From NCBI GenBank assembly GCA_030648295.1, contig JAUSID010000264.1, forward strand, positions 1 to 64,000: a stretch of DNA of 64,000 nt, in the 5' to 3' direction. Each line of letters opens with the position of its first letter. Position 1 is the stretch's first letter. The notes beneath the pieces were generated by a model that saw only the letters and a program-made list of their open reading frames with translations, ran no database searches and was not told the origin of the DNA. A program made the position numbers and the translations under genes. Shown here in pieces: positions 8,338 through 26,610 of the stretch. Origin of the DNA: Opitutaceae bacterium. GTDB lineage: Bacteria; Verrucomicrobiota; Verrucomicrobiia; Opitutales; Opitutaceae.

Positions 8338-9327
8338 ATGCCAGCCATGACGACAATTGCCCGCCAAGAACGCGTCCGGCGCGCCATCGAGTTCCGGCAG
8401 CCGGATCGGGTGCCGGTTGTATTCTGGAACCGCGACCAGACCGAGGGCGACGTGCTGCTCTATCACCTCGCGCTCGGTATGCCGGGCGATGGCTCCGCCA
8501 ACGCGTGGGATTGGTCGGTAAACGAGTGGGGTTATCATTTGGTGAAATCCGGCGACGGCACGATGGGCCATCCCGTCGAGCCGGTGTATCGCGAACTGCC
8601 GAGCGCGGACGAGATCAAGATGCCCGCGCTGCGCGAGAAGGAGCGGATGTCGGCCGCGCCGGCGTTTTTCGAGACGTGCGGCGATCGTTACCGGCTGGCA
8701 AGTTTCGACCTGAGCGGCTTCACGGTCTATACGTTCTTGCGCGGCTTCGAGAACGCGATGCAGGATTTCCTGTTGGAGCCGAATGGATTTGCGGCGCTGA
8801 TGGATCGGATCGTGGACTTCGAGTGCGACCTGATGCGGATTGCGGCAAGGCACGGGTTCCACGGGATTCATTTCGCCGACGACTGGGGCACGCAGTCCGG
8901 GATGATGATCTCGCCGGGGCTGTGGCGGGAGCTGTTCAAGCCCCGCTACGCCCGGCAGTTTGCGGTCGCGCACGAACTGGGGCTGCACACGTGGTATCAC
9001 TGCTGCGGCGAGTTTCTGCCGATCATGGAGGATTTCCGCGAGATCGGCGCCGACGTGCTCAACATCTCCCAGCCGAACGTGAACGACATCGCCGAAATCG
9101 GCCGGCGGTTGCGAGGCCGACAATGTTTCATGATGCCGATCAGCTATCAGACGGTCTCGATCACCGGGACGGTGGAAGAAATTTACGCGGAAGCAGAGCG
9201 TCTGCACCGGCTGCTGGGCACGCCGCAGGGCGGGTTCATCGGCTACGTGGAGGAATACAGCGTGATGGGCATGTCGGAGCGCAACTACTGCGCCTGCGGC
9301 GAAGCGTTTCGGCGGTTGTCCAATTGA
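8338..9327 (+). CDS. Uroporphyrinogen decarboxylase (URO-D) family protein, putative methyltransferase
   Basis: RVRRAIEFRQPDRVPV..., HFADDWGTQSGMMISPGLWRELFKPRYARQF, HCCGEF, MPISYQT. Confidence 0.9.
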   Translation: MPAMTTIARQERVRRAIEFRQPDRVPVVFWNRDQTEGDVLLYHLALGMPGDGSANAWDWSVNEWGYHLVKSGDGTMGHPVEPVYRELPSADEIKMPALREKERMSAAPAFFETCGDRYRLASFDLSGFTVYTFLRGFENAMQDFLLEPNGFAALMDRIVDFECDLMRIAARHGFHGIHFADDWGTQSGMMISPGLWRELFKPRYARQFAVAHELGLHTWYHCCGEFLPIMEDFREIGADVLNISQPNVNDIAEIGRRLRGRQCFMMPISYQTVSITGTVEEIYAEAERLHRLLGTPQGGFIGYVEEYSVMGMSERNYCACGEAFRRLSN

Positions 9328-13437: not shown

Positions 13438-13932
13438 AAATTTGAAACATAACAACCGTTTCACCTTCGCCTTGCTTGTCCTTCCTTTCGTCGCCGTCCG
13501 GCTGGCGGTGTTGGACGCGCCAGCATTGTGAGTCCGGCCAATAATGCGATCGGTCATATGCAATATCCGAATTTCACCTGGACGGCGGTTTCCGGCGTCG
13601 CTTCTTACAAAATCCAAATATCCGACACGTCCAGTTTTGCGACCATTGTCAGGCAGAGCACGTCGGATATTGCCCGATACGTTCCAAGCGCTGCGCTTGC
13701 TGTGACCATCGAGGCGCTCATCCGCGGCGAATGGAAGCTGGTTCTCGACAGCCCGTGCGCCCTGTTGGAACTTTACAACCTCAAACGCGACCCGCAGGAA
13801 ACCACCGACTTTGCCGCGAAAGAGAAGGCCGTGGTTCGTGATCTTACCGCGGCGTTGCGCCACAACAAGTCCAGCGCGGTGGTGCGGTGCCGTGGCAGGC
13901 GCCAACAAAATAAGGCTTCATCATGGGACTGA
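13438..13932 (+). pseudogene. Chimeric remnant: polysaccharide-lyase-like/Fn3-type N-terminal piece joined to a sulfatase C-terminal piece
   Basis: LKHNNRFTFALLVLPFVAVRLAVLDAPAL, then VSPANNAIGHMQYPNFTWTAVSGVASYKIQISDTSSFATIV, then LIRGEWKLVLDSPCALLELYNLKRDPQETTDFAAKE (typical sulfatase C-term). Confidence 0.7.
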
Positions 13933-14960
13933 GTTCACGAGAGAGAGTGTTGGCCGCATTGCGGCACGAAGAACCCGACCGCACACCGCGCGATTTTTGG
14001 GCGGAGCCACCGACGATAAAGCGGCTGTTCGCCCACCTCGGCCACAACGACAAAGACAAGCTGCTCGACACGCTCGGCGTGGACGTGCGTCATCTGGAAG
14101 CGCCCGCGCCGCCCGAACGAGAAGTCGGTAGCGGTGAGTTCCAAAACTTTTGGGGCGAACGCTACGTGTATAACCATACACCCTGGGGACCGATGCGCGA
14201 GGATACGAAGGGCGCGCTCGCCGGTGCGACAAGCTTTGACGAATTGGAAGCGTTCCCGTGGCCGAAGCCGGATTGCCTCGACCGCTCGCAACTCAAGGCG
14301 CAGTGTGCGCGCTACGAGCAGCACGCACTGCTCTACGGCTTCGCCGACATCTGGCAGCGGCCGGCGCTGGTGCGCGGCTGGGAGGAGATGTTCCTCGACA
14401 TGGCGGAGCAGCCGGAGTGGGTCCACTTCCTCAGCCGCAAGTTCACCGACTTCTACCTCGAAGACTACACGCGAGCCGCGGAGATCACAGGGGGGAGGAT
14501 TGATCTCTATCTCGTCATCAGCGACATCGGCACGCAGCGCGGACCGCTCATTTCCACGGCGATGTTCCGCGAGTTCATTGCGCCATACTTGAAGGAGATG
14601 ACCGACCGCATCCACAGTCTGGGCGGACGGGCGCTCTATCATAGTTGCGGCACGATCCAGGCGTTCATCCCCGGATTGATCGCTTGCGGCGTGGACGTAC
14701 TCGATCCGATCCAGCCAACGTGTCTCGCCATGCAGCCGGAGAGTCTCAAGCGCGAGTTCGGCGACCGGCTGAGTTTCCACGGAGGCATTGACATGCAGGA
14801 GTTGTTGCCGCGGGGCACCCCCACGCAGGTGGAGGCCGAGGTGCGCCGCTACTGCAAGGTGCTCGGCGCCGGAGGCGGCTACATCCTCGGTCCTGCGCAT
14901 CTGTTCCAGCCCGACGTGCCGCCGGAGAACATCCTCGCGGTCTATCGCGCTGCGTGTTGA
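13923..14960 (+). CDS. URO-D family corrinoid/methyltransferase-type protein
   Basis: SSRERVLAALRHEEPDRTPRDF, YHSCGTIQAFIPGLIACGVDVLDPIQP, SFHGGIDMQELLPRGTP, YILGPAHLFQPDVPPENI. Confidence 0.92.
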   Translation: MGLSSRERVLAALRHEEPDRTPRDFWAEPPTIKRLFAHLGHNDKDKLLDTLGVDVRHLEAPAPPEREVGSGEFQNFWGERYVYNHTPWGPMREDTKGALAGATSFDELEAFPWPKPDCLDRSQLKAQCARYEQHALLYGFADIWQRPALVRGWEEMFLDMAEQPEWVHFLSRKFTDFYLEDYTRAAEITGGRIDLYLVISDIGTQRGPLISTAMFREFIAPYLKEMTDRIHSLGGRALYHSCGTIQAFIPGLIACGVDVLDPIQPTCLAMQPESLKREFGDRLSFHGGIDMQELLPRGTPTQVEAEVRRYCKVLGAGGGYILGPAHLFQPDVPPENILAVYRAAC

Positions 14961-16046: not shown

Positions 16047-16823
16047 ATGGTCGATCCACCCGCAGGCACCCATCCCGTTGTTGCTCGCGCGATCGCCGTG
16101 GTGGCGTGCCGCGTGCTCGAGGCGGAAATCGTCGCGCTGACACGCGGCGCGACGCACATTGTCCGTCGCGAGAACTTCGAGATGGGCCTGCACGACCAGC
16201 CGACGGCGCTGCGCACCCGGCTCGCGGGCGCGATCGAGCGCGCCGAGGCCGATCCCGCGGTGGAGGCGATCGTGCTCGTTTACGGTCTCTGCGGGCTCGC
16301 GCTTGTCGATCTCGCGCCCCGGCGCTGTACACTCGTCGTGCCACGCGCGCATGACTGCGTCACGCTTTTCCTCGGCAGTAAGGAACGCTACGCGGCGTGC
16401 ATGCAAGCCGATCCGGGACTCTACTGGTATTCACCCGGCTGGAACCGCGACAAACGGGTGCCTGGCCCCGACCGCGAGGCGCAGCTCCGCGCCGCCTACA
16501 CCGAAAAATTCGGTGCCGAGGACGCGGAGTCGCTGCTCGAAATGGAGCGTGAGAGTTTCGCCCAGCACACCGGCGCCGGCTACACCGATCTTGGCCTGCC
16601 CGACGACGAGCAACAGCGCGACTATGCCGCGCGTTGCGCCGCGTCGCTCGGCTGGAGCCTTACCGCGCATCGTGGCGATCCGTCGTTGCTCCGCGATTTG
16701 TTGCACGGGCCGTGGGACGAGGCGCGCTTTCTCGTGGTTCCACCTGGCCAGCGCATCGCGATGTCAGTCGATGCCGCCGTGATGAAGGCCGTGCCGGTCG
16801 CTCCGCCCGGCGCCGCACCGTGA
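16047..16823 (+). CDS. DUF1638 family protein
   Basis: IAVVACRVLEAEIVAL, AIVLVYGLCGLALVDL, VVPRAHDCVTLFLGSKERY, YWYSPGWNRDKRVPGPDRE; annotated ORF may start at GTG 16011. Confidence 0.85.
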   Translation: MVDPPAGTHPVVARAIAVVACRVLEAEIVALTRGATHIVRRENFEMGLHDQPTALRTRLAGAIERAEADPAVEAIVLVYGLCGLALVDLAPRRCTLVVPRAHDCVTLFLGSKERYAACMQADPGLYWYSPGWNRDKRVPGPDREAQLRAAYTEKFGAEDAESLLEMERESFAQHTGAGYTDLGLPDDEQQRDYAARCAASLGWSLTAHRGDPSLLRDLLHGPWDEARFLVVPPGQRIAMSVDAAVMKAVPVAPPGAAP

Positions 16824-18263
16824 GCCAGCCGCCATCCATCCATGTGCAATGGCCTGACGGCGCGTCGACGCTCCCGCTGCCCGTCGCGCACCACGATGGC
16901 GCGACGCTCGCCGATCAACTCGCCGACGCCGGCCACCCGCTCAATACCCGCTGCGGCCGGCACGGACTTTGCGCCGGCTGCTCCGTGCAGCTCGTGGCGG
17001 GGAAATTCCTCGGCCGTGATGGCACCGAGGCAGTCGCGCCCGCCGAGTTCAAGGCCTGCCAGGGCCGGCTCGCACCGGACGCCGACGCGATGATCGCTGT
17101 TCCGTCGCGCTCGCTCGCGACGCACCGGCCGCAGGTCGTCACGACATTCAAGGTCGGCGTGCCGGTCGCGGACCAGCCGCTCGTGCCTGTCGTTCCCGGC
17201 GAGAGCGATCACGGGCTCGCGATCGACATCGGCACGACCACGGTCGTGGTTTCGCTGATCGATCTTCGCACGGGCAGCATCGTGCGCGAAGAGGCGTCGC
17301 TCAACCGCCAGATCGAGTTCGGCGACGACATCCTCACGCGTATCCAGCTCGCCGGTCAGCCGGGCAAGCTCGCCGCTCTCCGCGACGCCATCGTCCTGCG
17401 CACACTCGCACCACTAATCGAAAGCGCGTGCGTCGGCGCGGCCATCGCGCCAACCCGGCTGGTCGGCGCAACCGTCGCGGGCAACACGACGATGCTCCAC
17501 CTGCTCACCCGCACCGATCCTACGCCGATGGGCATCGCGCCGTTCCGCGCCGCGTTTCTCGGGCACCGCGTGCTGACCGCCGCGGAAATCGGCCTTCCCA
17601 CTCCTCCGCCGGCCATGCCCGTCCACCTGCTGCCGGGCATCAGTGCCTATGTGGGCGCCGATCTCGTCGGCGGGCTGCGTATGCACGGGGCTCAACCACT
17701 GCGACAAACCCAGCCTGCTCGTGGACATCGGCACGAACGGCGAGATTCTCCTCATGCATCGTAGACGGCTGCTCGCCACGGCGACCGCGGCCGGCCCGGC
17801 ATTCGAGGGCGGCCGGCTCGCCCGTGGCACGCGCGCCGTGGCCGTCGCCGTCGCCCATGTGCATTTCGACAGCGATTTTCCGCCTGCGCTTGAGGTGATT
17901 CCCCCTGCAAGGGGCATCGTGGGTCTCTGTGGTTCGGCCTACGTCGATTTTCTCGCGCAGGGCCGGCCGGATCTCGTTGCTCGAGCCCACAGGCCGGATT
18001 TCCCAATCGGCCTGGCGGATGCTGCCGGCCGAACATCAGCATCATTGCGGCACCACGCGATCGAAAGCGGATTGCTGCCGGGTTTTCGGCCGGAGCAAAT
18101 CGACGTTGTCGGCAACACCGCGCTCGGCGGCGCCTGGCTCGCATTGATCGACCGCACCGTGCTGCCGGAAATGATTGCGGCAAGCACGGCCGCCGAGGTG
18201 GTCGAACTGAACCTCGAACCCGGATTCGAAGACACGTACATCGATCACCTCGCGCTGCCATGA
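16820..18263 (+). pseudogene. Corrinoid reductive-activation protein (2Fe-2S ferredoxin + ASKHA), RamA/RACE-like, frameshifted
   Basis: CGRHGLCAGCSVQL ferredoxin cysteines; LAIDIGTTTVVVSLIDL; VAGNTTMLHLL; frame changes near 17680-17700, then SLLVDIGTNGEILL...AGPAFEGG...GLCGSAYVDFL...NTALGGA. Confidence 0.87.
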
Positions 18264-19594
18264 ACCGCGCCATCGCAGATGCCGACATTTTTCCTGGCGT
18301 CCTCGCGGCAGCGCAGTTCGACGCGCTGGCGGTGCGGCATCGTTGCGCCACCGGGCTCAACCTGGGCGCAATCGATGCCAACGGTACGCTCCTCCGCGGC
18401 CGGGGCGAGCGGGGCGCATGCGTGCGCGACGAAGCATGCCGGCCGTTTCGCGCGCAGGCCATTGCGGAGGCCGCGTGCTGGGGCGAACCGTGCGTCCTGT
18501 GCTGCGCCTGCAATCGCGCGCTCTGGGCCGTCCCGGTGACGCAGAACCAGCGCGTCTGCGGCGGACTGCTCGTCGCCGGTGTCGCACTGCACCGCCCACG
18601 GCGAGCCGGCTCGCTCGACCGGAAAATCCTGCGCGCCTGCCGCGTCCTGCTCGACCTTGCTACCGAGCACAATCTCACCAACGCCGCGCAGCTCGCGGAG
18701 CGCCGCCAGTTCGCCCACCGCGAGCGCGAGAAAGCCGAGGCGATGCACGCGTTGAAGGGCCGGCTGCACGACGACATCCGCAGCACCTACCTGCACGAGG
18801 AGCCGGCGCTCCTCGCGGCCATCCGCCGAGGCGAACGCCCCGAAGCACGGCGCATCCTCAACCGCGTGCTGGTCGGCATCTACGCCGCCGGCGAGTCGCA
18901 CACCGCGTTGCTCAAGAGCCTCGCGCTCGAACTCGTCGTCATGATGACTCGCGCCGCGGTGCAGGCCGGCGGCAACCCGGAAAAAATCCTCGGGCTGAAC
19001 TTCCAGTCGCTCACCGCGCTCGCCCGCGTGACTGACCAGGAGACGCTCGCGCCCTGGCTGTGCGACATGCTCGAGCAGCTCATCGACGCGATTCAGGCGA
19101 ACACCCGCCGGCCCAACTCCGTGCAGCTCGTCCGCGCGCTCGAGTTCATGCAGGAGCACCTCGCGGACGAACTCGCGCGCGAGGACGTCGCCCGCGCGGC
19201 CGGGCTCTCGCCGAGCCACTTCTCGCATCTGATGCGGGCAAGGACGAACTGGTCGTTCACCGAATTGCTCGCCCATCTCCGGATCGATCGGGCCTGTCAT
19301 CTTCTGGCGCACACCGAACACCCGCTGGCAAGCATTGCGCAGGATTGCGGCTTCAGCGACCAGAGTTACTTCACGCGGGTCTTCCGCAAGCGCACGGGCC
19401 AGACGCCGGGCGACTACCGGGAGGGGAGAGGGTCGGCGGAGCACGGCCGTGACGCAGGACCACGTCGCGATGCGGCTCCGGTAAACATCCTCGGGCCGAG
19501 CACCAAAGTCCTAAACAAAAGCACCGGAGTCCAAGCGCCGGGCCGTCGTTTCATGCTAGGGTCTGCGGTACCCAATCATCATGACCACGCTTGA
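18260..19594 (+). CDS. AraC-family regulator with PocR-like sensory domain
   Basis: Cys-rich PocR-like N-term (FRAQAIAEAACWGEPCVLCCACNRALWAVPV); AraC HTH LAREDVARAAGLSPSHFSHLMR...IAQDCGFSDQSYFTRVFRKRTGQTPGDYR. Confidence 0.9.
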   Translation: MNRAIADADIFPGVLAAAQFDALAVRHRCATGLNLGAIDANGTLLRGRGERGACVRDEACRPFRAQAIAEAACWGEPCVLCCACNRALWAVPVTQNQRVCGGLLVAGVALHRPRRAGSLDRKILRACRVLLDLATEHNLTNAAQLAERRQFAHREREKAEAMHALKGRLHDDIRSTYLHEEPALLAAIRRGERPEARRILNRVLVGIYAAGESHTALLKSLALELVVMMTRAAVQAGGNPEKILGLNFQSLTALARVTDQETLAPWLCDMLEQLIDAIQANTRRPNSVQLVRALEFMQEHLADELAREDVARAAGLSPSHFSHLMRARTNWSFTELLAHLRIDRACHLLAHTEHPLASIAQDCGFSDQSYFTRVFRKRTGQTPGDYREGRGSAEHGRDAGPRRDAAPVNILGPSTKVLNKSTGVQAPGRRFMLGSAVPNHHDHA

Positions 19595-19658
19595 ACTGTT
19601 ATCCCAAGTCGTCGGTGCCGGGAAAGCGAAAGACGCCAGGGACATCGCGATGTCATGA
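19370..19658 (+). repeat. Left copy of duplicated araC-3'/intergenic/corrinoid-gene-5' junction (second copy 24425-24650)
   Basis: Shared 'aaagtcctaaacaaaagcaccgga', 'cccaatcatcatgaccac.cttgaac.gttatccca', '..gcgaargacgcca'. Confidence 0.9.
19581..19658 (+). pseudogene. Truncated 5' end of a corrinoid-protein gene (25 codons)
   Basis: MTTLELLSQVVGAGKAKDARDIAMS* versus intact MTTLEQLSQAIGNGKAKDAK at 24580. Confidence 0.85.
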
Positions 19659-21241
19659 TCGATTTGCGATCCAACCTGCGGTTGAAGGAAATCCTCTCGG
19701 AAACGGATCGTTTTCCGATCGGGGTCGAGTTGGTTTCCACGCGCGGTACCATGACGCAAACGCAAACGCTGAAAACCCGGAGTTTTTCAGCAGACCTGAC
19801 GCATAGCCCGCGAGTTGCTTGGGTGTCGATCACTGATAATGCCGGGGGAAATCCGCAACTCGCCCCCATCGCCTTGGGCACGCCGATTCTGTATGCCGGG
19901 AAAGAGGTGGTCATTCATCTGACGTGCAAAGATATGAACCGTTATGCGCTGGAAAGCCAACTCTGGCTGCTGGCCAGTCAGGGGTTTCATAATATTTTGG
20001 CGTTAACCGGAGATTACCCGATCGAGAGTTTTGCAGGGCGCGCCAAGCCGGTCTTCGACATCGATTCCGTCGCGTTGTTGACCATGATGGAGAAGATGAA
20101 TGAGGGGCTGGAAGTCACCTCTGGCAGCGCCAAAACCCAGACGACGCTCGATGCGACCCATTTTTTTGCCGGCGCGGTGGCGAGTAATTTCAAATTCCAT
20201 GAGAACACCCTGCTGCCACAGTATTACAAGTTGGAAAAAAAGATTAAAAGCGGGGCGAAATTCATCATCAATCAGATCGGCTTCGATTCCCGCAAGGGCC
20301 ACGAACTGCTCGAATACCTCCGACTGCGTCAACTCGATCACCTCCCGGTGATTGGCAACGTCTATGTATTAAGTCCTTTCGTAGCGCGCCTGTTCAATCA
20401 AATGAAAATTCCGGGCGTTATCCTCACGGATGAGCTCAACGGAATCTGTCAAAAGCAGGGCGCTTCCCCCGATAAGGGCAAGAGGTTTTTCCACGAATTT
20501 GCCGCGAAGCAACTAGCGATCTATCGGGGACTCGGTTACAGGGCGGGCTACTTGGGCGGGGTTCACAGCTACGCGGCAATCGAAGAAATCCTTGAGTTGG
20601 AAAAATCCTTCGCCTCGGATGATTGGAAACTATTTGCCCGGGAAATCCTGTTTTCCCGCCCCGGTGAATTCTTCCTTTTTGAACAAGATAAAGATACCGG
20701 CCTGTCTCGTCCGGGCGAAGTGAATCGGGAGTGGAAGAAAGGCCTGCCCGAAAGGCATACCAACAAAAATGTCACCTTGGGCTACCACCTCTCGAAGCAC
20801 GTTCATTCGTTGATGTTCGAAAAAGGAAAAGGCCTTGCGCCACTGGCCGAAAAGATCTGCCAAAAAGCAAAGGATCCCGGCCAAGGCCCGCCCTGGATGC
20901 GCTTCATCGAGCATCTCTCAAAATCGGTCCTGTTTTCCTGTCAGGATTGCGGCGATTGCTCTTTGGGGGAGACCGCTTTCCTGTGTCCCGAATCGCAGTG
21001 CGCGAAAAATCAGCGCAATGGCCCCTGCGGCGGAACGCGGGACGGAAAATGCGAGGTCTTTGACTATGAGTGCATTTGGGCGCGGGCCTATGACCGCATG
21101 AAATACGAGGGGAAATCCGAACAGCTGCTCGATCATGCCCCCGTCATCCAGAATCAGGGGCTGCGCGGAACATCGAGTTGGGCCAATTTTTGGCTGGGAA
21201 AAGATCATGCTTCAAAAAAATCCGCGGCGAAATCCTCATGA
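19655..21241 (+). CDS. metF: Methylenetetrahydrofolate reductase with C-terminal MTHFR_C cysteine-rich domain
   Basis: GVELVSTRG...VTCKDMNRYALESQLWLLASQGFHNILALTGDYP; C-term CQDCGDCSLGETAFLCPESQCAKNQRNGPCGGTRDGKCEV. Confidence 0.92.
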   Translation: MIDLRSNLRLKEILSETDRFPIGVELVSTRGTMTQTQTLKTRSFSADLTHSPRVAWVSITDNAGGNPQLAPIALGTPILYAGKEVVIHLTCKDMNRYALESQLWLLASQGFHNILALTGDYPIESFAGRAKPVFDIDSVALLTMMEKMNEGLEVTSGSAKTQTTLDATHFFAGAVASNFKFHENTLLPQYYKLEKKIKSGAKFIINQIGFDSRKGHELLEYLRLRQLDHLPVIGNVYVLSPFVARLFNQMKIPGVILTDELNGICQKQGASPDKGKRFFHEFAAKQLAIYRGLGYRAGYLGGVHSYAAIEEILELEKSFASDDWKLFAREILFSRPGEFFLFEQDKDTGLSRPGEVNREWKKGLPERHTNKNVTLGYHLSKHVHSLMFEKGKGLAPLAEKICQKAKDPGQGPPWMRFIEHLSKSVLFSCQDCGDCSLGETAFLCPESQCAKNQRNGPCGGTRDGKCEVFDYECIWARAYDRMKYEGKSEQLLDHAPVIQNQGLRGTSSWANFWLGKDHASKKSAAKSS

Positions 21242-22164
21242 ATCCTCCTGAACTTCACGTCATCGGCGAACTGATGAACAATTCCTACGGGCGCGCCCGG
21301 AAAGCGTGGCAGGCACGCCATGTCGCCGGCTACCAGGAGTTGGCCAAAATTCAGACGGATCTGGGAGTCTCCTTCTTGACCCTCAACGTGGACGGCACCC
21401 AAAGGCTCTCCGTCACGCTCCAGGAGATGCTCGACTTTCTGCCTCACGTCATTCCGGCCATTCAGGAAGTGACCGATGTGCCCCTCAGTTTTGACAATCC
21501 AAACGTCGCCTTTCATCGCGAATGTCTCAGGCACTACAATCCGGCGAAATCCAAGGGTCGCGCCATCCTTAATTCAATTTCAATTTCTCGAAATAATATT
21601 GCCGAAATGATTCAGCTGGTACGGGAGTACAACCTGAACGTCATCGTCATGGCTTCCGAGTGTTTGCTGCCGGACGGCTCCCATGGTTCGGCCAGAACCG
21701 TTGGGGATATATTGAACGCGACAAAGCATTTTGTCTCCATGCTTCGCGAGCAGGCCGGCATTGCCAATGAGCGCATCATCATCGATCCCGGGCTGGCGCC
21801 CGTTGCTTCTGACACCAGCGGGCTGATCAATCTCTGCCTCGATTCGATCCGGGCGATTCGTTCTGAAAAGAATCTGGCAGGTATTCATATCTCGGTCGGA
21901 CTTTCAAACTTCGCCATTGGCGCCCCCAAGCCGATGCAAGTTCCTCTGGAACGAGCCTTCCTGGCCCTGGCGATGGAAGCAGGCCTGGACTTTGCGCTCT
22001 CAAATCCCGAGAAAAATACGGTCCCGATGTCCCAGGACGAGAAGCTCGTTCAAGATTTAATCCGTATTCTTGAGGCGGGTAGAGTTCGATTAGGCGAGAC
22101 CCAGGAAGATGCGGGATACCGACAACTGGATGCATTGATGGAACTTTGGGGCGATCGGAATTGA
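21238..22164 (+). CDS. Pterin-binding (DHPS-like) methyltetrahydrofolate:corrinoid methyltransferase-type protein
   Basis: HVIGELMNNSYGRARKAW, LGVSFLTLNVDG, ILNSISISRNNIAEMIQLVREYNLNVIVM, ERIIIDPGLAP; ATGA overlap with metF. Confidence 0.88.
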   Translation: MNPPELHVIGELMNNSYGRARKAWQARHVAGYQELAKIQTDLGVSFLTLNVDGTQRLSVTLQEMLDFLPHVIPAIQEVTDVPLSFDNPNVAFHRECLRHYNPAKSKGRAILNSISISRNNIAEMIQLVREYNLNVIVMASECLLPDGSHGSARTVGDILNATKHFVSMLREQAGIANERIIIDPGLAPVASDTSGLINLCLDSIRAIRSEKNLAGIHISVGLSNFAIGAPKPMQVPLERAFLALAMEAGLDFALSNPEKNTVPMSQDEKLVQDLIRILEAGRVRLGETQEDAGYRQLDALMELWGDRN

Positions 22165-22186
22165 TTCGTTCACAGCAGCCAAAGCG

Positions 22187-23473
22187 ATGAATCCAAACAT
22201 ACTGGCCCATTTACGAGTCACCCCGGCAAATCCGACACGTTGGATTGTGGTGGGGCAATTGCTGGATGCGAAAAACCGGCGCATGCTAAAAAATGCCCAC
22301 TTGATCTTTGATCAAGACCACATTTTGCATGTGGGCTCCGCAGCACCGGAGGCGGCGATTCTAAGCGGGCAAAGGACTCCCGATTTGACCCTTCTTGAAG
22401 CTACGGCGATGCCCGGATTGATCGAAGGTCACTCACATATTTTTCTCGAAGGCTCGGAGTTGGCTGCCGAAAAGCGGGCCGACTACCAGAAGCAAGATCC
22501 CCAAACGCTTTATCAGAATGCCGAAACTCGCCTTCGCACCCTGGCGCGCTTGGGAATTATCGCCATGCGCGACGGAGGGGACAAAGATCAGGTTGGTCTG
22601 CGCTTGAGCAAGCTTACCGCCGCCAAAGATTGCCTGCCGTTCACCGCCAAAGTCTTCAGTCCTGGGGCAGGTATCCACCGGCAGGGACGCTACGGTGGTT
22701 TTTTTGGAAAACCATTGGAAGACCACGCCAATATTGAGAGCTGCGTGCAAGCGCGGGTTGCCGCAGGCGCGGATCATATCAAGATCGTTCCCACCGGAAT
22801 TATTAATTTCGCCAAAGGCCTGGTCGTCGCCAAACCCCAGTTCAGCATAGAAGAAATTCAACAGTTTAAGCAGGCGGCACACGCGCAGCAAAAGCATCTC
22901 ATGGCCCATGCTTCGGGTGATATCGGCGTAGGGTATGCCATTGAGGGCGGAGTTGACACCGTGGAACATGGTTTCTTTATTACCGACGATCAATTGGCAG
23001 GAATGCGCGACAAAGAAATTGCGTGGGTGCCGACCTTTACGCCCGTGCAGGAACAGTTGGATCATGCCGACCTCATGGGCTGGACCGGCGAAACGCTGGA
23101 CCACTTGAGCAGGATTCTCGAAAACCACGCGTGCAGTCTTCAAAAAGCAATGGCGCTGGGCGTCAACGTGCTCGTGGGCAGTGATGCCGGATCGTGTGGC
23201 GTCGCTCACGGGACCGGGTTGTTTTACGAGATGGAACTGCTCGAAAAAGCGGGGATGCCCACCCTCAATATTCTCTGTCAGGCGACGCATGGAAACAATA
23301 ATGTGTTAACCGGTAAACAGCCTTACGGCTCGCTCGAAAAAGGTTTTAGGCCGCGATTTATCGTGACGGGAAACAATCCGCTGGAGACGGTAAAGAACCT
23401 TTCTCGCGAGCGGTTGGTGGTGTTTGATGGCGCGGCTGAAAGCAGCGCCACGGTCAGTCTGGAAAATTTGTAA
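22187..23473 (+). CDS. Metal-dependent amidohydrolase (imidazolonepropionase/prolidase-like fold)
   Basis: AMPGLIEGHSHIF (HxH), HLMAHASGDIGVGYAIEGGVDTVEHGFFI, VLVGSDAGSCGVAHG. Confidence 0.9.
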   Translation: MNPNILAHLRVTPANPTRWIVVGQLLDAKNRRMLKNAHLIFDQDHILHVGSAAPEAAILSGQRTPDLTLLEATAMPGLIEGHSHIFLEGSELAAEKRADYQKQDPQTLYQNAETRLRTLARLGIIAMRDGGDKDQVGLRLSKLTAAKDCLPFTAKVFSPGAGIHRQGRYGGFFGKPLEDHANIESCVQARVAAGADHIKIVPTGIINFAKGLVVAKPQFSIEEIQQFKQAAHAQQKHLMAHASGDIGVGYAIEGGVDTVEHGFFITDDQLAGMRDKEIAWVPTFTPVQEQLDHADLMGWTGETLDHLSRILENHACSLQKAMALGVNVLVGSDAGSCGVAHGTGLFYEMELLEKAGMPTLNILCQATHGNNNVLTGKQPYGSLEKGFRPRFIVTGNNPLETVKNLSRERLVVFDGAAESSATVSLENL

Positions 23474-23499
23474 AACGCATAGCTCGACAGCTAAAAGCA

Positions 23500-24513
23500 A
23501 TGCCCGCCAAATTACTTAAAGGAACGGAAATCCGGGAAGAAATTCTTGCCGAGATCAAACAAGAGGTTGAGGCAATCAAGGCCGCGCACGGCGTCGTGCC
23601 CGGCCTGGTCACCATCCTCGTCGGCAGCAATCCCGCGTCGCTTTCCTATGTTTCCCTGAAGATTGAAACCGCGCACAGACTCGGCTTCAAAGAAATCCAG
23701 GACAACCAACCGCCGGATATTTCCGAAGCGGCGCTGCTGGCCTTGCTCGAGAAATACAAACAGGACGACACTCTTCACGGCATCCTCGTCCAGCTGCCTT
23801 TGCCGCCCCATATCAATGAGAAGAAGGTGCTCAACGCCATTGATCCCGACAAGGACGTGGACGGCTTCCATCCCGTCAACGTGGGACGGTTGTTGATTGG
23901 CGGCAGCGAGGTGAAATTCCCGCCCTGCACGCCAGCAGGAATTCAGGAGATGATCCGGCGTTCCGGAGTCGAAACCAGCGGAGCGGAAGTGGTCGTCGTC
24001 GGGCGCTCCAACATCGTCGGCAAACCCATCGCGAACATGCTCATGCAAAAAGGCCCGGGCGCGAATGCCACGGTGACCGTCGTGCATACCGCCACCCGTG
24101 ATCTCGCGGCCCATTGTCAGCGGGCCGATATTCTCATCGTCGCCGCCGGAGTTCCGGGACTGGTCAAGCCGGAGTGGATCAAGCCGGGCGCGTGTGTCAT
24201 TGATGTCGGCGTGAACCGGGTGGGAGAAAAGATCAGCGAAAGCACGGGCCGGAAGGTCGCCATTTTGAGGGGCGATGTGGATTTCGACGAAGCCGCAAGA
24301 ATCGCCGGTTTTATCACGCCCGTTCCCGGTGGCGTTGGCCCTATGACGATTGCCATGCTCATGCGGAACACCCTCAACTCGCTGAAATTCAAGTTGGGAA
24401 TCCAGCCGGGAGCCGCTAGCAGCCGCAGGCTGACGCGAGGCCTTTTCCAGCGCGCGGGCCGGACGCCCGGCGATTACCGGGGCGCCCCGCAGGCACCCGC
24501 ACTAAAGTCCTAA
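23500..24513 (+). CDS. folD: Bifunctional methylenetetrahydrofolate dehydrogenase/cyclohydrolase FolD with an AraC-derived C-terminal tail
   Basis: YVSLKIETAHRLGF, ILVQLPLPPHINEKKVLNAIDPDKDVDGFHPVNVG, VVGRSNIVGKPIANML, PVPGGVGPMTIAMLMRNTL; tail RRLTRGLFQRAGRTPGDYR resembles AraC C-term. Confidence 0.95.
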   Translation: MPAKLLKGTEIREEILAEIKQEVEAIKAAHGVVPGLVTILVGSNPASLSYVSLKIETAHRLGFKEIQDNQPPDISEAALLALLEKYKQDDTLHGILVQLPLPPHINEKKVLNAIDPDKDVDGFHPVNVGRLLIGGSEVKFPPCTPAGIQEMIRRSGVETSGAEVVVVGRSNIVGKPIANMLMQKGPGANATVTVVHTATRDLAAHCQRADILIVAAGVPGLVKPEWIKPGACVIDVGVNRVGEKISESTGRKVAILRGDVDFDEAARIAGFITPVPGGVGPMTIAMLMRNTLNSLKFKLGIQPGAASSRRLTRGLFQRAGRTPGDYRGAPQAPALKS

Positions 24514-24650
24514 ACAAAAGCACCGGAATCCTAGCACCGGACCGTCGTCTTTAGGTAGGATTCGCGGCACCCAATCATCATGACCACACTTGAACAGTTA
24601 TCCCAGGCCATCGGTAATGGAAAAGCGAAGGACGCCAAGGTTTTTGCCCA
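24425..24650 (+). repeat. Right copy of the araC-3'/intergenic/corrinoid-gene-5' junction
   Basis: See 19370-19658. Confidence 0.9.
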
Positions 24651-25215
24651 ACGCGCCCTCGACGAGGGCACCGCTCCCGGCGATATCGTTGACCAGGCCC
24701 TCGTCCCGGCCATGGCCGCCGTGGGCGAGAAATTCAAGAACAACGAGATCTTCGTCCCCGAGATGCTCGTCGCCGCGCGCGCGATGAAGGAAGCCATGCT
24801 GCTCCTTGAGCCGCGCCTCGTGGCCGCCGGCATCACACCCAAATTCACCGCCCTCATCGGCACCGTGCAGGGCGACCTGCACGACATCGGCAAGAACCTC
24901 GTCGGCGTGATGTTGAAGGGCGCCAACTTCAAGGTCGTCGATCTCGGCACCAATGTCCCCGCGGCGAAATTCGTCGCCGCGATCAACGAACACCGGCCGC
25001 AGATTGTCGGGCTCTCCGCGCTCCTGACCACCACGATGCCCGCAATGGTCGAAACCGTGCGCACGATCCGCGCGAGCGGTTGCCCGCCCGTGAAGATCAT
25101 GATCGGCGGCGCGCCAATCAGCCAGCAGTTCGCCGACGAGATCGGCGCCGACGGCTTCGCGCCCGACGCCGGCTCCGCCGTCGATCGCGCCCGCGAGCTC
25201 GTCGGCGCCATATAA
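24580..25215 (+). CDS. Corrinoid (B12-binding) protein, MtaC/MtbC/MtmC family
   Basis: PAMAAVGEKFKNNEIFVPEMLVAARAMKEAM; GTVQGDLHDIGKNLVGVMLKGANF (DxHDIG); LSALLTTTM; IGGAPIS. Confidence 0.95.
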   Translation: MTTLEQLSQAIGNGKAKDAKVFAQRALDEGTAPGDIVDQALVPAMAAVGEKFKNNEIFVPEMLVAARAMKEAMLLLEPRLVAAGITPKFTALIGTVQGDLHDIGKNLVGVMLKGANFKVVDLGTNVPAAKFVAAINEHRPQIVGLSALLTTTMPAMVETVRTIRASGCPPVKIMIGGAPISQQFADEIGADGFAPDAGSAVDRARELVGAI

Positions 25216-25240
25216 CAACCTTGCGACGCCATCGCTCTTC

Positions 25241-25427
25241 ATGAAATTCCGGCAACTCGCCATTCCGCGCGCCGGCGACACCGCGTGCGGCTTCGGCAAC
25301 ACCGCGATGGTGCCTCGCCGAGCAAAAGATAATCCCGCGCGTTTTCGCCACCGTCGTCCGTGCGGTCACCGCGGCGCGCACCCTCGTCACTTCCGCCAAC
25401 TATCTCCCGGCGGAATATGCGCTCTGA
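25241..25427 (+). pseudogene. Remnant of a corrinoid methyltransferase gene (MtaB-like?)
   Basis: AGDTACGFGNTAMV | frameshift | LAEQKIIPRVFATVVRAVTAARTLV*; sits immediately 3' of the corrinoid gene. Confidence 0.5.
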
Positions 25428-25432
25428 CGTCG

Positions 25433-26035
25433 ATGCCCGCTCCTACGGCAATACTCGCGAACAGATCGGGTGCACCCCGGGCAAAACCGACGGAAGTTGC
25501 GCTGCCGCGTTGCATCGTCATCACCGGTCCGCGCTGCGCCGGCAAAACGCGCTGGCTCCAGCAGTGTGTGCGCAGTCTCGTCGAATGGCAGCCGACGGCC
25601 CGACCCGCGGTCCTGCTCGCCGAGGGAGGGCGGACGCGCATGGAGCTTTTCTCTCAGAGCACGCCTGGCGTCGCGGTGCGGAAGCTTTTTTTGACATGCA
25701 CGTGCTGCCCGGCAGTCGCCAATTTGCCCGGTAACGTGCGCGCGCTGGTTGAGACGGCGCAAGCCGACTGGCTCTTTGTCGAACTGCCGGTGATCGCCGC
25801 GCCGGGTTTGCTAGCGGAGATCGACCGCACCCTCCGCTGGCCGCGGTCGCTCGTCGCTTGTCTCACACCCGCGTGGGCGAAAGCGCAGCGCGCGAAGTTG
25901 CTTTCGCCGTTTCAATCGCTGTTGCTCAAGGAGGCGAGCACCGTGATCGCCAGTCCGCTCGACGCCGCGCAGGCCGTTGACCGGCTGCTGCCAGCGTGCC
26001 GCGCCCGCACGGCCACGTGCACTATCTCTCCATGA
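25433..26035 (+). CDS. CobW-like P-loop protein
   Basis: CIVITGPRCAGKTRWLQQ (Walker A), CTCCPAVANLPGNVRAL Cys cluster, ADWLFVELPVIAAPGLLAEID. Confidence 0.68.
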   Translation: MPAPTAILANRSGAPRAKPTEVALPRCIVITGPRCAGKTRWLQQCVRSLVEWQPTARPAVLLAEGGRTRMELFSQSTPGVAVRKLFLTCTCCPAVANLPGNVRALVETAQADWLFVELPVIAAPGLLAEIDRTLRWPRSLVACLTPAWAKAQRAKLLSPFQSLLLKEASTVIASPLDAAQAVDRLLPACRARTATCTISP

Positions 26036-26610
26036 AAACCAACCTCCTCGCCCTCGCCCTGATGCTCGTGGCCGCGCTCTGGCGCGTTGCGAACGTGTTC
26101 GAGCCGTCGCTGTTCAACATTGCACCGATCACGGCGCTCGCATTTTGCGGCGCGGTGTATTTCCGCGACTGGCGCTGGTGGCTCGTTCCGTTTCTGGCAC
26201 TCACGGCCTCCGATCTCTGGCTGAATCATTATCACGAGAGCCGGTTCGGCTACACGTGGTCTTGGAACGAGATGTTTTTGCGCATGGCGTGCGTGGCCGT
26301 CGCAGTTGGCATCGGCCGGCTCGTCGCGCGCCGCCGCAACCTGCTCACGCTGGCCGCAGGGACCCTCGGCAGCGCGCTGATTTTCTACTTCGGCACCAAT
26401 TCTGTGTCGTGGTTCGCCGATCCGTATTACGCGAAGACCATGGCGGGTTGGTGGCAGGCGCTCACGATTGGTCATCCGGAATTTCCGCCCACGCTGTGGT
26501 TTTTCCGCAACACGCTGATCGGAGATGTCCTCTTCACGATCCTGTTCGCCACCGCCTTTGAATTCGCCGCGGCGCGCGAACCCGTGATCGCACGCGCCGC
26601 TCGGGGGTGA
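26032..26610 (+). CDS. Small multi-spanning membrane protein (DUF6580/ECF S-component-like)
   Basis: Several hydrophobic spans; ITALAFCGAVYFRDWRWWLVPFLALTASDLWLN; ATGA overlap with the upstream CobW-like gene. Confidence 0.7.
   Translation: MKTNLLALALMLVAALWRVANVFEPSLFNIAPITALAFCGAVYFRDWRWWLVPFLALTASDLWLNHYHESRFGYTWSWNEMFLRMACVAVAVGIGRLVARRRNLLTLAAGTLGSALIFYFGTNSVSWFADPYYAKTMAGWWQALTIGHPEFPPTLWFFRNTLIGDVLFTILFATAFEFAAAREPVIARAARG

Follow-up and report, generated by a model that had tools for sequence, protein, structure and literature searches.

An mtaB pseudogene behind an intact corrinoid protein gene in an Opitutaceae bacterium

In an uncultured Opitutaceae bacterium, an intact gene for an MtaC-type corrinoid protein (24580-25215, + strand; B12-binding_2 PF02607 and B12-binding PF02310) is followed by a short stretch that reads like a broken methyltransferase gene, raising the question of what once stood there, how it was lost and with which enzyme the corrinoid protein now works. 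We addressed this question in a 64,000-nucleotide stretch of one contig (the window), to which coordinates refer unless a locus is named. A preliminary description had seen here, in a peptide with one frame change and then a stop, the leftover of a substrate-specific methyltransferase gene of an mtaC-mtaB type pair, tentatively of the MtaB family, and had proposed that its specificity was lost and perhaps taken over by URO-D proteins.

Identity and extent of the relic

The relic occupies 187 nt (25241-25427, + strand), beginning 25 nt after the corrinoid stop and ending shortly before the ATG of a CobW-type GTPase gene (25433). Read with one frame change, it encodes MKFRQLAIPR-AGDTACGFGNTAMV and then, in the next frame, LAEQKIIPRVFATVVRAVTAARTLV-TSANYLPAEYAL and a stop. 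Three pieces of an mtaB gene can be told apart, all on the + strand. The first (25241-25270) holds codons 1-10, MKFRQLAIPR, which are identical in protein to those of mtaB in the closest related locus (L057) and begin as does the intact mtaB elsewhere in this genome, on contig C205. The second, placed by the PF12176 profile, starts with codons 215-228 (25271-25312), including Cys220, and continues with codons 229-253 (25314-25388) in the next frame, the shift being caused by an extra C at ~25313 that is evident in an alignment with six intact mtaB genes. The third (25389-25427) comprises the last ~12 codons (about 447-458) and the stop TGA, and matches the C-termini (...YLPAEYGL) of intact mtaB genes. 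The peptide of the preliminary description, frame change included, is present exactly as given and corresponds to the middle piece, to which our comparison adds both ends of the gene, the start and the C-terminus with its TGA.

Joined across the frame change, the 61-aa peptide matches PF12176, the Pfam family of MtaB, with E=5.2e-12 and 45.8 bits, above the family cut-off of 25 bits; in a profile search of the raw genome without frame joining, the relic scores only 11.7 bits. Its DNA shares 83% identity with the intact C205 mtaB over 119 nt (E=1e-30 pairwise, 2.7e-27 genome-wide). Judged by these profile and DNA matches, the peptide is not a chance reading. A literature search found no report of this mtaB pseudogene. 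It is a dead gene of an already known family, and where an intact paralog exists, a pseudogene is by itself nothing unusual.

That paralog (G000:C205:57800-59173; L001/L037) is complete and open at 458 codons. Like the relic, it has a regulator of the AraC type, a corrinoid gene and a DUF6580 gene as neighbours, the first two before it and the last after; unlike the relic, it has no cobW behind it. Its product matches a single solved structure, Methanosarcina barkeri MtaB (2I2X, E=1.4e-85), and a PF12176 search of the genome (9.1 Mb, 294 contigs, 4% contamination) found no gene besides it and the relic. The loss of specificity suggested earlier therefore applies to the locus and not to the genome, which keeps an intact corrinoid-mtaB pair; this pair probably made the loss of mtaB tolerable through redundancy.

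Position in the operon

By its named relatives, the locus belongs to the Opitutaceae. In related loci, a full mtaB of 458 codons lies between the corrinoid gene and the CobW GTPase gene, and the order corrinoid gene, then mtaB, is common to them. A complete mtaB followed by cobW stands at the same place in seven loci (L032, L034, L035, L059, L060, L062 and L064), and the two genes adjoin in L032, L034, L035, L059, L062, L064 and L071. The longer order regulator-corrinoid-mtaB-cobW-DUF6580 is seen in L059, L060, L062, L064 and L067 and in the congeneric contigs L034 and L035, while L032 shows the mtaB-cobW part of the operon. The closest locus, L057 (87% for the corrinoid gene), starts its mtaB 28 nt past the corrinoid gene. 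The match to that mtaB ends at codon 122, about 100 bp from the end of the contig, which stops inside the gene; its completeness cannot be judged because sequence at the contig end recurs inverted at the other end. This recurrence involves the last ~117 bases (L057 11010-11129) and is possibly an assembly artefact.

By synteny, then, the relic sits exactly at the place of mtaB. Together with the PF12176 match and the intact paralog, this bears out both the tentative MtaB assignment and the view that the relic is left over from the substrate-specific methyltransferase gene of an mtaC-mtaB type pair. We are nearly certain that a full methanol:corrinoid methyltransferase gene once stood here and was reduced by internal deletion to a pseudogene. 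Among 57 loci without a full-length mtaB, a search for other remnants behind corrinoid genes returned only the mtaB genes cut by contig ends in L057 and L061. Separately, a locus from a Puniceicoccaceae metagenome-assembled genome (L114, 10896-11138) carries a second, degraded mtaB 3' end directly behind an intact mtaB, and in L059, L062, L097 and L113 the gap from the corrinoid gene to the intact mtaB measures 1.1-1.5 kb, in which another gene may lie.

Downstream, the operon continues with the usual 3' neighbour of mtaB, an open CobW/COG0523-type GTPase gene (25433-26035, + strand; PF02492, E=4e-8) whose product carries the CXCC motif as CTCC in LFLTCTCCPA, and with a gene for a DUF6580 membrane protein (26029-26610, + strand; PF20221), the next gene of the ancestral operon by synteny. 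COG0523 GTPases have been linked to zinc-dependent methanol methyltransferases, mtaABC (PMC2770081), and a CobW-type gene next to mtaB reproduces that linkage, at the level of COG0523 rather than of the subfamily; unlike the reported case, the gene in the window has outlived its mtaB. The close spacing, with cobW starting 6 nt past the relic stop, also bears on whether the relic is still translated. A single open frame runs from 25241 to 26035 and the deletions are in frame, so that translation initiated at the former mtaB start could, past the frame change, enter the cobW frame and yield an N-extended CobW or translation coupling. Such agreement of frames arises one time in three by chance in a G+C-rich stretch, however; a separate ATG opens cobW, and comparable cobW frames of relatives mostly show no extension of this kind, making continued translation extremely unlikely.

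Decay of the gene

Of an intact mtaB, codons 1-10, 215-253 and about 447-458 are left in the relic, about 60 of 458 codons. The first deletion removed about 612 nt (codons ~11-214, about 205 codons) in frame. Its junction (25260-25280, + strand) carries an 11-bp near-perfect repeat, GCGCCGRCGAC, that is common to the N-terminal part of L057 mtaB (...CCGCGCGCCGACGAC) and the middle part of C205 mtaB (...TGCGCCGGCGACACG), the flanks being GCGCCGACGAC, as in L057, and GCGCCGGCGAC, as in C205. This short repeat suggests that the deletion arose by slippage or short-repeat recombination. The second deletion, also in frame, took about 579 nt (about 193 codons), and no clear repeat was found at its junction.

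Where an open frame of about 458 codons would be expected of a full-length gene, the locus holds 187 nt with a frame change. We take the zinc ligands of MtaB to be Glu164, Cys220 and Cys269 (M. barkeri numbering). Of these, only Cys220 survives, a residue invariant across an alignment of 28 intact homologues; the equivalents of Glu164 and Cys269 (Glu164 and Cys266 in C205 MtaB) fall in the deleted parts. With about 400 of 458 residues gone, including two of the three ligands, no working enzyme can come from the relic. It thus shares with M. barkeri MtaB (2I2X) the PF12176 family, the place behind an MtaC-type corrinoid gene and the Cys220 motif GDTAC, and differs from it in its lost ligands and broken frame.

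How long ago the gene decayed is less clear. At residue 249, the relic has A where V is invariant in the 28 intact homologues, and its nonsynonymous/synonymous ratio is weakly relaxed at 0.12 versus 0.07 among intact genes, on a 39-codon piece too small for dating decay. This mildly raised nonsynonymous share would fit decay that is either recent or weakly resolved. Both deletions preserve the frame, an outcome with a chance expectation of about 1 in 9, and the middle piece is conserved at most of its residues, pointing to recent decay or to some lingering constraint.

A collapsed or chimeric contig from an organism with an intact mtaB here could in principle mimic such a relic, and the genome is apparently a draft, with its 294 contigs and 4% contamination, so that the extra C might reflect faulty assembly. 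Both deletions would stand nonetheless. The junction repeat, the substitutions at conserved positions and the independent decay of another gene of the operon, described below, all fit real mutation, and the relic's 17% difference from C205 mtaB, the sole further copy in the genome, excludes a chimera between the two. We give an assembly artefact next to no probability.

Other changes in the operon

The regulator of the operon is intact (AraC type; 18260-19594, + strand; PF12833 and synteny), and upstream of it the gene for a RACo-type corrinoid activase (16814-18263, + strand) is also a pseudogene. Against the intact L057 gene, it has gained single nucleotides at ~17669 and ~17967 and lost 193 bp at ~18057; open copies occur in L057 and, judging by one-frame matches, on contig C183 of the same genome.

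An inserted module (19655-24513, + strand) separates the regulator from the corrinoid gene and consists of genes for MetF (19655-21241), a pterin-binding methyltransferase (21235-22164) and an amidohydrolase (22187-23473), all named by Pfam, and FolD (23500-24513), named from its sequence rather than by a Pfam scan. Solved relatives of the pterin-binding methyltransferase include methyl-THF:corrinoid and methionine-synthase enzymes. The module is bracketed by a 142-bp direct repeat (82%), of which one copy (19500-19641, + strand), between regulator and module, repeats the promoter region of the corrinoid gene with its first ~23 codons, and the other (24499-24640, + strand) contains the real corrinoid start. 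A scrap resembling the 3' end of the AraC regulator gene precedes this second copy, and the FolD frame runs into it (TPGDYRG, 24430-24513). The duplicated promoter and the regulator-like scrap indicate insertion into a duplicated promoter region. Searching the whole genome for the duplicated promoter element gave no copies beyond these two and thus revealed no wider regulon.

The module is absent at this place in mtaB-bearing relatives. It is present without FolD in one other genome (G003, locus L058). The locus there has an intact corrinoid gene but no mtaB and no cobW, and genome-wide no MtaB (E<=1) and no MTTB were found. The relic looks like an intermediate between the relatives with full operons and this genome. 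Across the Opitutaceae AraC-corrinoid loci, both module-bearing loci lack mtaB and all nine module-free loci have it (two of the nine running off the contig inside the gene), an association that with 2 versus 9 loci is suggestive only. On a tree of regulator and corrinoid protein, the window groups with L057 (75% support) and G003 with L060 (100%); as the two loci that carry the module do not group together, it was either acquired on two occasions or spread by transfer.

Partner of the corrinoid protein

The corrinoid gene is under purifying selection (dN/dS 0.10-0.16 versus relatives), so its product probably continues to work with a partner enzyme. The best candidate is the pterin-binding methyltransferase; C205 MtaB acting in trans is possible, and the URO-D proteins are the least supported candidates. 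With the module inserted beside its gene, the corrinoid protein may exchange methyl groups with the folate pool.

A broader proposal holds that the arrival of the folate module made mtaB dispensable and that the corrinoid protein was re-purposed, working now with the pterin methyltransferase on the methyl-THF side and with a different methyl donor. It is compatible with the pseudogene explanation and would supply the loss with a cause and the corrinoid protein with a new role. The loss of mtaB from both module loci and its presence in the nine others, the separate positions of these two loci on the tree, the intact corrinoid gene of G003 in a genome without MtaB and MTTB, and the selection on the corrinoid gene in the window all speak for it. 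Yet the cases number only two and may be connected through a transfer of the module, C205 MtaB could still serve the corrinoid protein of the window, and the broken RACo-type gene fits plain decay of the locus. We therefore regard re-purposing as possible but lean against it.

The preliminary description had instead looked to the URO-D proteins, two of whose genes (8338-9327 and 13923-14960) lie 10-16 kb upstream. Members of this superfamily (MtvB, OdmB, VdmB, MtoB and CdmB) are corrinoid-linked methyltransferases (PMC13222342), and like MtaB they give methyl groups to corrinoid proteins; they belong to a different family, have no part in the relic and are not conserved with the operon. Neither of the two genes in the window borders the corrinoid gene, the loci of relatives lack a close homologue of them (at most 37% identity), their products have no close solved methyltransferase relative by sequence, and a separate corrinoid-URO-D neighbourhood exists on C183. 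Near the corrinoid gene of G003/L058, where a conserved neighbour might be sought, no URO-D homologue was found. The new neighbours of the corrinoid gene that has lost mtaB are instead the MetF, pterin methyltransferase, amidohydrolase and FolD genes. A takeover by URO-D proteins is not supported, and we consider it very unlikely that they replaced MtaB as the methyl-donating enzyme.

Discussion

The safe reading of this locus is the decay of a redundant methanol methyltransferase gene. The ancestral operon ran activase-regulator-corrinoid-mtaB-cobW-DUF6580. A deletion between short direct repeats, a second internal deletion and the gain of one base reduced mtaB to its relic, with the module entering between regulator and corrinoid gene at around that period, either before or after these events. 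The corrinoid protein left behind may now trade methyl groups mainly with the folate pool via the pterin-binding methyltransferase.

Whether this amounts to a repeated switch in the Opitutaceae, in which a folate-linked MetF/pterin methyltransferase/amidohydrolase module takes the promoter of the regulator by duplication of the corrinoid 5' region and mtaB is then discarded, seems doubtful on present evidence. If true, it would mean that an MtaC-type corrinoid protein was turned from a methanol acceptor into a carrier between methyl-THF and another substrate. The relic shows, in a clean case caught midway, how a corrinoid operon loses its substrate-specific methyltransferase, and it raises the testable question of whether the orphaned corrinoid protein has changed its methyl donor.
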